Source: Arcobacteraceae bacterium (GTDB lineage Bacteria; Campylobacterota; Campylobacteria; Campylobacterales; Arcobacteraceae). Taken from it: a stretch of 64,000 bases of DNA. Where the stretch lies: positions 62,001-126,000 of the forward strand of contig JAQUAG010000002.1 of assembly GCA_028687375.1 (NCBI GenBank). Direction: 5' to 3'. The position numbers were made by a program, and so were the translations under genes. This document shows positions 18,019 through 51,188 of the stretch, piece after piece (position 1 is the stretch's first letter; every line of letters begins with the position of its first letter). Under the pieces are notes generated by a model. It searched no databases. It saw only the letters and a list, made by a program, of their open reading frames with translations, and was not told the DNA's origin.

Positions 18019-18051
18019 ATATGTTTCCTTTTAAAAGGTTTCATCTCACAA
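18019..18051 (-). promoter_or_regulatory. purD ribosome-binding region with small palindrome
   Basis: Read on the minus strand, the stretch before purD holds CCTTTTAAAAGG, a perfect palindrome overlapping the Shine-Dalgarno bases AAGGAAAC. Folding would bury the ribosome site. It follows the repeated leader element directly. It occupies the place where the der and 28.4-kb leaders instead carry a GTCCC/GGGAC hairpin. This is a weak structural hint, not a demonstrated control site. Confidence 0.3.
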
Positions 18052-18138
18052 AGGATTTTTTTATATATCTACTTTTAACAGTTTGAAAAATCAAATGTAA
18101 AGTAGCAAATCCTAAAGAAAGAAACGAGTTTTTTCATA
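18052..18138 (-). repeat. Repeated structured leader element, copy A (upstream of purD)
   Basis: On the minus strand the core TCTTTAGGATTTGCTACT is the complement of 18101-18118. It is identical over all 18 bases to the copy before der and 17/18 to the copy at 28.3 kb. Downstream, CTACTTT pairs with AAAGTAG (complement of 18069-18075), enclosing a TTTGA/TCAAA hairpin. An imperfect hairpin (GAAAAAAC / GTTTCTTTC) precedes the core, as in the other copies. The core begins about 100 bases before the purD ATG, some 43 fewer than in the other two copies. The element is either a cis-acting RNA or an intergenic repeat. Confidence 0.6.
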
Positions 18139-18159
18139 AATTATAAAAATTCCCAAGTA

Positions 18160-18218
18160 GCCGTTGACCATTTGGTCGGCCCTAAAAGCCAAATCTTTGC
18201 AAAAGCAAAGACTTTAGG
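18160..18218 (-). other. Two strong RNA hairpins between 6S-like RNA and purD leader
   Basis: The minus strand can form a long hairpin from 18218 to 18181: CCTAAAG, CTTTGC, a TTTT loop, GCAAAG, then CTTTTAGG. This is followed directly by a second hairpin (GCCGACC / GGTC, CGGC) at 18180-18160. Neither has a clean T-tract, so they are not standard intrinsic terminators. They could be the 3' structures of the upstream small RNA or part of a purD-specific leader. Confidence 0.5.
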
Positions 18219-18234
18219 TAAGAGATGATTTAAG

Positions 18235-18396
18235 GAAATCAAATATTTTTACAAATAAAGACTTGCACACCAATCACACTACTGTTACCTATTTAGTAAA
18301 GTTATCGGACCCTCATGTTATGGAAATCCCGAACCACCTAGGAAACAATATTTTAGCGAAAAAGAGGTATTTATTTGCTGAAAAAAGAGGACTGTG
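18235..18396 (-). ncRNA. ssrS: Candidate 6S RNA / purD-motif RNA
   Basis: A TATAAT box (complement of 18402-18407) would start a minus-strand transcript near 18395. The transcript folds into one long interrupted hairpin: UUUUUU and GCAAAUAAA near its 5' end (around 18386-18370) pair with UUUAUUUGU and AAAAAU near 18260-18245, enclosing a large central bubble (CCUAGGUGGUUCGGGAUUUCC, GAGGGUCCGAUAAC). The size of about 160 nt and closed-stem-plus-bubble form fit 6S RNA, which mimics an open promoter and binds sigma-70 RNA polymerase. From memory, a purD RNA motif and 6S RNA are located upstream of purD in Campylobacterota. The ends are estimates and the assignment rests on position and fold rather than alignment. 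Confidence 0.6.
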
Positions 18397-28262: not shown

Positions 28263-28282
28263 AAGAGAGGTTTATCTCTCTT
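28263..28282 (+). terminator. Hairpin after the globin gene
   Basis: AAGAGAG, a 6-base loop and CTCTCTT form a perfect 7-bp stem 7 bases after the globin stop. It is followed only by TAGGATTTG, not a true T-tract. The hairpin occupies the same position as the stems preceding the core in the other two leader elements, so it may belong to the element. Confidence 0.5.
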
Positions 28283-28410
28283 TAGGATTTGTTACTCTTT
28301 AGACTGAATTTTATTCAGTCAGTCTTCATAGCGTAGTCTTGTGGCGAATGAAGTGAAGACAAAAAGTAAACATTAAACAGTAGGTCCCTTCAAATTTGGG
28401 ACAAATTTTA
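28263..28410 (+). repeat. Repeated structured leader element, copy C (upstream of 92-aa gene)
   Basis: The core TCTTTAGGATTTGTTACT (28279-28296) differs by one base from copies A and B. GTTACTCTTT can pair with AAAAAGTAAAC (28361-28371), enclosing a hairpin ACTGAATTTTATTCAGT and a larger one GTCTTCA / TGAAGAC. It is followed by GTCCC (28384-28388) and GGGAC (28398-28402), then AAGGAG and the ATG. From core to ATG is 143 bases, against 142 in the der copy. The middle of the element is unrelated in sequence to that of copy B, but lengths and stems agree. Confidence 0.65.
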
Positions 28411-28421
28411 AGGAGCTTACC

Positions 28422-28700
28422 ATGAAAAGAGATATGTGTGCTGATGTAAAGATGGAAGAGGGATATATGCGAATGAGTATAGAGTTTAATAATGATGAGA
28501 GCCGAACTAAAATTTCAGACATTATTACACAAGTTGAAAAAGAGATGAAAATATATCCAAGCGTTATACGAAGAAATTTAGATGAGCATTGTGGTAATTT
28601 TTCAGTTGAATTTGGAATTGAAGAGATGAACGGTAGAGATGCTGGTGAATTTTGTGAAACTGTTATGCATAAATTAGGAATCGACCATTGTTCAATATAA
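28422..28700 (+). CDS. Small protein of unknown function (92 aa)
   Basis: The 92-residue protein has a strong ribosome site (AAGGAG, 6 bases before the ATG). It begins MKRDMCADVKMEEGYMRMSI and contains four Cys (C6, C57, C83, C90). It has a mixed alpha/beta pattern and no signal peptide or membrane helix. I do not recognise a family. It lies directly under leader element C and its 3' end overlaps the likely ybeY start by 13 bases. Confidence 0.75.
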   Translation: MKRDMCADVKMEEGYMRMSIEFNNDESRTKISDIITQVEKEMKIYPSVIRRNLDEHCGNFSVEFGIEEMNGRDAGEFCETVMHKLGIDHCSI

Positions 28701-49471: not shown

Positions 49472-51028
49472 CTACTCTCCATCTTCATATTCATCATCAA
49501 GATACTCTTCGTCATCATAAAAGTCATCTTCTTCTGAACCATCATCACTTTCGATATAAAGCTCTTTTGGAACCATCAACTCTTGATAAACAACATTGAG
49601 TTCATCATCATCGATTCTTTCCCCTTTTTTTCTAGCAACAATTCTAATAGGCACACCTTCAAAGTCAAGATATTCCCTTAAAATATTAATAAGATACCTT
49701 TTATAACTAAAGTGAAGCATCGATGGTTTATTCATTACAAGTGCCACTGTTGGTGGATTTGTATTGAATTGTGTTGCAAAATATATTCTTAATCTATTTC
49801 CATTTGGACTTGGAAGTGCATGTCTTTGAATAGCTTTTTTAATAGTTGCATTAAGAACAGATGTTGAAATTCTTTTGTTGTAGTTTTCAAAAATAGTGAT
49901 AATTTTATCTTTTAGTTTGTCTATGTTTCTTCCAGTTTTAGCAGATACTGCCATAATTGGGGCGTAATATAAAAATCTAAATCTATCCCTCACCTCTTTT
50001 GTTACTTTTTCATAAGTATCCATATTCTCATCCCATTTATTAAGGACAATAATAACACCCAATCCAAACTTATCAACAAGTCCAGAAACTTTCTCATCTT
50101 GATCAGCAATAGGAACACTCGCATCTAAAACAACAAGAGCTATGTTTGACTGTTGTAACATATCTTCTGTTCTCATTAGGGCGTATTTTTCGATTCCTAA
50201 AATCTTCCCACGTCTACGTAAACCTGCTGTATCAACAAAGGTAATTTTCTTATCATTATAGATAAATGTTTCATCAACTGGATCGATAGTAGTACCAGCT
50301 ATTGGACTTACAACACTTCTCTCTTCTCCGATAATTGCATTTAAAATAGAACTTTTCCCAACATTTGGTTTTCCAATAATCGCTATCTTGATATGATTTG
50401 GGTCAATCTCTTTTTTCTCTTCCACAATCACTTTAGATTTTCTTCGAGGTTCTCGCTCAGGTGTACTAAAATCTTCATCTTCATCAGCTTCTTTATTTTG
50501 GGCAATTTCGTTAGCTATAATCTCCTCTTCACTCATAGGAAGTTGCTCATGAAGCCATTCAAATAATCTTACAGTTCCTCTATTATGTGAAACAGATATA
50601 GGGAACATCCTCTCCTCATCTATCCCAAAACTGTAAAATTCCCAAAGATTTTCTTTCTCTTTATCGTTGTCAATTTTATTTACCACAAGTGCTAAATTTT
50701 TCCCAAGTCTTTGAAGTGCATAAAAAAGTTCACTATCTTTTTCATCAGGTATTCTCTTTCCATCAACCATAAAAAGGACAATATCTGCCTCTTTAGCTGT
50801 TTCAATTGCTTTTCTTTTTACATTTGAAAAAATAGCATCATCTGTATCATCAATCCCACCAGTATCAAGCATCATAGCTTCTCTGTTTAAAATTTTTACT
50901 TCTCTTCTTCTTATATCTCTCGTAGTTCCTGCAAGGTCACTTACAATTGCCACCCTTTTTTTCGCTATTCTATTGAATAATGAGCTTTTCCCAACATTTG
51001 GTTGCCCTATTAATGCTATTTTTATCAT
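49472..51028 (-). CDS. der: Ribosome assembly GTPase Der (EngA)
   Basis: Der has two tandem GTPase domains and helps 50S assembly. G1 motifs are GQPNVGKSS (near residue 8) and GKPNVGKSS, with DTGG/DTAG switch motifs and the NKID/NKWD specificity boxes. A KH-like C-terminal domain ends in PIRIVARKKGER. A linker with acidic stretches joins the G domains. Beyond the KH domain there is a highly acidic tail of about 30 residues (DDGSEEDDFYDDEEYLDDEY), which makes the protein 518 residues long, longer than most. A repeated leader element lies upstream. Confidence 0.96.
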   Translation of the reverse strand: MIKIALIGQPNVGKSSLFNRIAKKRVAIVSDLAGTTRDIRRREVKILNREAMMLDTGGIDDTDDAIFSNVKRKAIETAKEADIVLFMVDGKRIPDEKDSELFYALQRLGKNLALVVNKIDNDKEKENLWEFYSFGIDEERMFPISVSHNRGTVRLFEWLHEQLPMSEEEIIANEIAQNKEADEDEDFSTPEREPRRKSKVIVEEKKEIDPNHIKIAIIGKPNVGKSSILNAIIGEERSVVSPIAGTTIDPVDETFIYNDKKITFVDTAGLRRRGKILGIEKYALMRTEDMLQQSNIALVVLDASVPIADQDEKVSGLVDKFGLGVIIVLNKWDENMDTYEKVTKEVRDRFRFLYYAPIMAVSAKTGRNIDKLKDKIITIFENYNKRISTSVLNATIKKAIQRHALPSPNGNRLRIYFATQFNTNPPTVALVMNKPSMLHFSYKRYLINILREYLDFEGVPIRIVARKKGERIDDDELNVVYQELMVPKELYIESDDGSEEDDFYDDEEYLDDEYEDGE

Positions 51029-51040
51029 CTATGTCCTTTT

Positions 51041-51188
51041 AAAATGTCCCATTTAAAAAGGGACTAACTATTCTTATTCTACTTTTAACGGCTTAAATAA
51101 TCAAACCTCTAGGTTACCTTCAAAAATCGATGATTTTTCAAGGGGAACCTCCAGTAGCAAATCCTAAAGAGGGAGATATATCTCCCTC
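51041..51188 (-). repeat. Repeated structured leader element, copy B (upstream of der)
   Basis: On the minus strand the core TCTTTAGGATTTGCTACT (complement of 51153-51170) is identical to the purD copy. It is preceded by a perfect 20-base palindrome. CTACT pairs with AGTAG of TTAAAAGTAG (complement of 51079-51087), enclosing a long hairpin (AGGTT / AACCT with AAAATC / GATTTT). Then GTCCC and GGGAC form a hairpin (51046-51064), followed by AAAAGGA and the der ATG. From core to ATG is 142 bases, against 143 in copy C. Confidence 0.65.
51169..51188 (-). terminator. Perfect palindrome after the TIGR04219-type outer-membrane gene
   Basis: GAGGGAGATATATCTCCCTC is a 20-base perfect inverted repeat about 27 bases after the stop of the outer-membrane protein gene. 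Only TTTA follows, so it is a weak intrinsic terminator at best. It also forms the first stem of leader element B. Confidence 0.5.

Follow-up and report, generated by a model that had tools for sequence, protein, structure and literature searches.

The leader of der in the window (the whole 64,000-nt stretch of Arcobacteraceae DNA analyzed here) raises the question of what kind of folded element recurs in the same orientation before several genes. The initial annotation proposed a cis-acting RNA or an RNA-type repeat, and our analysis supports both halves of this alternative, since the element appears to combine the properties of a leader RNA with those of a dispersed repeat. The 18-nt core on which the proposal rested, TCTTTAGGATTTG[C/T]TACT, has exactly three matches in the window, as claimed: in the purD copy (18101-18118, minus strand), in the copy before an ORF of 92 amino acids (28279-28296, plus strand) and in the der copy (51153-51170, minus strand). 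By chance, 0.36 matches would be expected in the window when as many as three mismatches are allowed. Each copy faces its downstream gene (purD, the 92-aa ORF and der), each has a hairpin before the core (P1), and the YTACT/AGTAR pairing described after the core corresponds to a helix that we call P2. The GTCCC/GGGAC hairpin shared by the der and 28.4-kb copies was also confirmed, but it is degenerate in the purD copy. The der and 28.4-kb leaders are more stable than shuffled sequence (z = -3.3 and -4.2, respectively). The nearly equal core-to-ATG distances of these two copies (142 and 143 nt) did not hold up as a signal and are probably coincidental, given that P2 of each copy encloses, next to P3, an additional optional stem (about 40 nt) that is unrelated and independent between the two; most copies measure about 100 to 108 nt. 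The der element reaches position 51034 because its 3' end includes the Shine-Dalgarno sequence (SD). The features of the three copies are as follows.

51034-51188, minus strand: whole element before der, from P1 to the SD; 85.2 bits, E = 1.7e-15
51169-51188, minus strand: P1 hairpin, GAGGGAGA-TATA-TCTCCCTC; P1 covaries across copies
51158-51170, minus strand: conserved single-stranded core, TCTTTAGGATTTG; sequence conservation
51153-51157, minus strand: 5' strand of P2, CTACT; covariation
51112-51152, minus strand: optional extra stem-loop between P2 and P3; folding and comparison of copies
51090-51107, minus strand: P3 hairpin, GGTTTGATTATTTAAGCC; covariation and folding
51079-51083, minus strand: 3' strand of P2, AGTAG; covariation
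51046-51064, minus strand: hairpin I, GTCCC...GGGAC, SD free; covariation
51035-51062, minus strand: hairpin II, CCCTTTTTAAAT...ATTTTAAAAGG, SD sequestered, excludes hairpin I; covariation
51034-51038, minus strand: SD, AAGGA; the der start codon is at 51028
18026-18135, minus strand: purD copy with P1, core and P2/P3 intact; 87.1 bits
28265-28414, plus strand: copy before the 92-aa ORF (28422-28700); 71.1 bits
28322-28360, plus strand: optional stem of the 28.4-kb copy; folding
28384-28402, plus strand: hairpin I of the 28.4-kb copy
28386-28413, plus strand: hairpin II of the 28.4-kb copy

A search of the source genome with the core found 23 places with at most two mismatches. Copies share one layout: a hairpin, the core, a second hairpin with a CTWCT/AGWAG foot, a linker (about 14 nt between P2/P3 and the 3' switch), GTCCC/GGGAC, the SD and the start codon. 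The covariance model that the initial annotation had called for was built from an alignment of 18 source-genome copies folded with covariation, and pairs covary well beyond chance. P1, P2, P3 and the GUCCC/GGGAC hairpin all have strong covariation support, and the earlier impression that the hairpins covary was borne out in that both sides had changed in 24 of the 27 pairs. Since the alignment had been fitted to the model and is biased towards it, the score of 0.638, compared to 0.178 in shuffles, is to be read beside a sliding control that falls to 0.13 or less. Across 98 distinct rows, 95.4% of paired cells could pair compared to 72.0% in shuffles, with 632 double changes compared to 164. 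P2 alternates between CUACU/AGUAG and CUUCU/AGAAG, and every pair of P1 and P3 varies. The segment between P1 and P2 reads CUUUAGNRUUUG, in which CUUUAG and UUU are 95 to 100% conserved (95 copies). Extra stems occur at set places: inside P2 beside P3 in the der and 28.4-kb copies, and within the core or the hairpin I loop in others. The extra stem-loop of der is missing from the corresponding copy in the same-genus genome G049. Pairing between the core and the switch was rejected, given that it appears only in the minimum-energy fold of der and has no covariation support, and a CsrA site was rejected because the GGA of the element core is not conserved (AGGA, AGGG, AGAG, AGUG).

The 3' end of the element contains a second helix that the initial annotation missed and that likely provides the mechanism. 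The loop of the GUCCC/GGGAC hairpin also pairs with the SD segment over about 12 bp, and in nearly all copies the segments follow the order a-b-a'-b'-GGA. Hairpin I, identical to the GUCCC/GGGAC hairpin noted earlier, is formed by a with a'. In hairpin II, one strand comprises the CC of a together with b, and the other comprises b' together with the SD's GG, the length of both strands changing together. Since the CC is shared and a' lies inside the loop of hairpin II, the two hairpins are mutually exclusive, and both can be formed in 87 of 90 parsed copies. When strands were swapped between copies, the mean hairpin II score fell from 9.7 to 6.0 ± 0.2. Of 96 element copies, 85 attained the hairpin II score, compared to 17 of 766 gene starts without the element in one relative. 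In an unguided covariation scan, run without a tree-based null, the pairs of hairpin II scored 34 to 68 and those of hairpin I at most 44 (overall SD of 6). The column pairs of hairpin II, though absent from the model, thus rank among the strongest covarying pairs alongside those of P1 to P3. The two hairpins have similar predicted energies (means of -9.9 and -11.7 kcal/mol). Given that hairpins I and II exclude each other and both covary, the 3' end resembles a bistable translation switch, and we infer from these sequence data that a two-state switch may operate in cells. The same scan found no long-range covarying pair between the upstream module and the switch, and the route of signal transfer is therefore not visible. 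The two 3' hairpins could alternatively be kept for RNA stability or DNA mobility.

The covariance model identified 29 copies in the source genome and at least one copy in 80 of 104 Arcobacteraceae genomes, representing 16 of 20 genera, with up to 28 copies per genome in this survey. In a wider search of the order and phylum, weaker matches came from three additional Campylobacterales families, and the model had no match among the phylum genomes sampled outside this order. A scan with the exact core among named genomes returned Arcobacter, Halarcobacter and other Campylobacterales records together with three outsiders (Thermohalobacter, Winogradskyella and Melioribacteraceae), whose matches we rejected as not being elements or as only marginal. 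The one element that was searched against PLSDB plasmids had no match, and spread by plasmids was set aside on this result. Tandem head-to-tail arrays of two or three elements occur at seven loci, with a period of about 111 to 112 nt in two of them (L006 and L186), and a good SD is kept only in the last copy of an array.

Placement is strict. Among evaluable distinct full-length copies, 136 of 137 point into the gene that starts just past their 3' end. A same-strand ORF starts within 40 nt in 134 of 143 distinct full-length copies, another tandem copy comes next in 6, and 2 of the 3 that remain also precede clear start codons. Random orientation, which the initial annotation expected of a dispersed repeat, is thus not seen in Arcobacteraceae but is seen in part among remote Campylobacter relatives. 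The 150 downstream genes fall into 91 clusters of mixed function, which we take, partly by recognition, to include der, purD, lepA, luxS, thrB, trpB, guaA, dnaK, dnaJ, rpsB, folA and gatC. Recurrent targets are PII, HypA/B/C, rubredoxin, SufC/SufE, NifU/NifW/NifT, ferredoxin and IspH. The apparent excess of metal-cofactor and nitrogen genes, noticed post hoc and with no background comparison, is a lead only; no single pathway stands out, and the target set does not point to one ligand.

Gain and loss were compared against one relative, G044 (1.90 of about 2.0 Mb), which lacks about 16 of the 23 source-genome copies that precede a gene. The element upstream of der is present in the source genome and G049 and absent in the same-genus genomes G044, G045, G047 and G048. 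Empty sites in the same-genus relative are plain gene junctions, often short and containing only an SD. At trpB, thrB, der and others these short junctions retain AAGGA, and the right-hand boundary of the insert therefore falls immediately 5' to the SD of the host gene. In close relatives the element has decayed at some sites or is absent, e.g., at lepA in G044. Mean identity is 0.606 between copies at different genes of one genome and 0.599 between genera; identity is higher among copies that precede the same gene. Copies within a genome are therefore no more alike than copies from different genera, and we see little sign of recent bursts. The same gene recurs as a target across genera far more often than expected at random, but most targets still differ. 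Together, the copy identities and the sharing of target genes suggest that the family is old, turning over and partly retained.

Campylobacter-type genomes carry the module P1-core-P2/P3, with the core CUUUAGURUUUG, without the SD switch and with weaker matches, showing that the upstream module can stand alone. Some of these copies lie just before gene starts, and others lie in either orientation within mosaic intergenic repeats, as at loci L177-L183 in two genomes (G145 and G158), where many similar copies (GGGGTACCCC..., AAAAAGCGCTTTTTTGGCAG...) occur on both strands. The module also borders rRNA genes in other families of Campylobacterales, where it lies directly before mature 16S rRNA at five loci (forward orientation) and directly after mature 23S rRNA at three (reverse orientation); it is absent from the 16S leaders sampled in Arcobacteraceae. 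We rejected the view that the rRNA-adjacent matches in Campylobacter are false positives of an AT-rich model, given that the core and P2/P3 are present. In one Campylobacter-type copy (L119, genome G246), P2 reads CUCCUUU/AAAGGAG, and its 3' strand itself resembles the SD of the next gene.

We considered whether the element could be mainly a dispersed repeat of the MITE or REP kind, selfish or neutral, whose fold serves its spread and which survives only where the host SD is spared. Differences in presence between same-genus genomes with compact empty sites, the high turnover of target genes and the tandem arrays all agree with this explanation, and the Campylobacter-type relatives, with their mosaic repeats in both orientations and copies beside rRNA genes, support the dispersed-repeat side. 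We nevertheless regard this explanation as unlikely. There would be little reason for a functionless repeat to retain two competing SD helices, and the copy identities offer little sign of recent bursts, with orthologous copies being more alike. MITE-type repeats have terminal inverted repeats and target duplications (PMC3049150), but by eye neither is clear at filled versus empty sites, where the host AAGGA directly follows the 3' end. REP sequences, which are palindromic dispersed extragenic repeats, are associated with RAYT transposases (PMC2817692, PMC3733652). The element shares with them a dispersed, extragenic location and the GTAG at the foot of P2, but it is larger and multi-helix, with at most about 30 copies per genome. 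The Y1 (TnpA-REP) transposase expected in repeat-rich genomes (PF01797) is absent in G000, G044, G003, G008 and G009, among them several element-rich genomes, whereas G042 has 17 copies of the transposase and one element; a RAYT/Y1 transposase was therefore rejected as the mobilizer.

An RNA processing or stability element, at which cleavage would split operon messages so that P1 guards the 3' end of the upstream message and the remaining hairpins the 5' end of the downstream one, would fit the many copies that lie between co-directional genes, often 0 to 10 nt past the upstream stop codon, and the relatives that adjoin mature 16S and 23S rRNA ends in other families. This explanation leaves the inclusion of the SD in hairpin II and the strict placement at start codons without a reason, and we consider it improbable. 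The boxA sequence, CUCUUUA after a hairpin, resembles the core, and some relatives lie in rRNA leaders, so that the element might load NusB/S10 within operons as an antitermination site. The rRNA leaders of the same family read CUUUAA(A/C)A, however, whereas the element reads CUUUAGNRUUUG, with the G in 96% of copies and an additional conserved UUU(G) tail; antitermination would also leave the SD switch without a role, and we give it very little credence.

The explanation that we find most probable, with moderate confidence, is that the element is a dispersing cis-acting translational RNA switch in Arcobacteraceae mRNA leaders. From 5' to 3', the RNA, which is presumably made, would consist of P1, the near-invariant single-stranded CUUUAGNRUUUG, P2/P3, a linker and a 3' switch containing the SD. 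When hairpin I is formed, the SD would be free and translation could start; when hairpin II is formed, the SD would be closed. P1, the core and P2/P3 would act as the sensor, most likely a binding site for a protein or small molecule that shifts the balance between the two hairpins. Elements may spread slowly to new genes by inserting just 5' of an existing AAGGA. A more far-reaching version, which we hold only tentatively, is that of a self-dispersing switch that copies itself before the SDs of unrelated genes, captures them in two states and builds an Arcobacteraceae regulon that answers to a single signal, such as metal/Fe-S or nitrogen state. Across the Arcobacteraceae, many genes, including the housekeeping genes der, guaA, dnaK and rpsB, appear to lie behind one undescribed RNA switch. 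If this is true, the element would be a rare example of a mobile-like repeat whose arrival places any gene behind it under ready-made translational control, and the recruitment of new genes into an RNA regulon could be tested at filled versus empty sites of close relatives.

Translational riboswitches of the SAM, preQ1 and THF types have a conserved folded leader module followed by a switch that sequesters or frees the SD, and they occur in tandem copies. The element is similar in its structured leader with covarying helices, its order of folded module and SD switch, and its tandem copies. Its mutually exclusive structures at the SD, seen in sequence and covariation, correspond to a putative expression platform. 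It differs in its many target pathways, its many copies per genome, its turnover between species and the lack of any pairing overlap found between module and switch, and ligand binding is only putative. An RNA thermometer, in which heat opens the SD helix, would not need the conserved upstream module. Similar to the BOX, RUP and SPRITE repeats of pneumococcus and to ERIC and Correia repeats, the element is short (about 110 to 150 nt), multi-copy, intergenic, RNA-folded and patchy at orthologous sites, with no gene of its own seen (PMC3049150); unlike them, it has a uniform orientation, a 3' end on the SD and a covarying two-state SD switch. The TAACTGA repeats of Beggiatoaceae also lie upstream of start codons and have been proposed as a post-transcriptional binding site (PMC4679880). 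The element likewise directly precedes the start codons of genes with unrelated functions, but those repeats are simple heptamer arrays, whereas the element is multi-helix with covariation.

We rate as new a putative translational RNA switch family, defined by sequence analysis and absent from Rfam, that behaves like a dispersed repeat. No description of it was found in the literature, including the A. butzleri genome paper; an earlier partial description could lie in the supplement of PMC6429828, a study in which several intergenic motifs of Arcobacter sp. L received no name or were listed as HRC candidates (e.g., HRC-4). Rfam 15 had no gathering-level match in the window, and a lax search of seven element loci gave only two weak matches, both outside the element. 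Upstream of purD, the Rfam purD motif (RF01069) matches 18151-18282 on the minus strand just below the cut-off (37.6 bits, E = 1.3e-5) and overlaps a weak 6S RNA match, with the purD copy of the element sitting between the RF01069 match and purD. In C. jejuni and H. pylori, 6S RNA has been reported at this location (PMC3847290).

In viral contigs, the degenerate core gives many matches, most of them at chance level. The model has 15 element-like matches of 38 to 59 bits in viral or prophage contigs. Contigs of a metagenome-assembled genome labeled Helicobacter pylori PMSS1 carry Arcobacteraceae-type elements at four loci, and, given these elements and an Arcobacteraceae-like der, this label is probably wrong.
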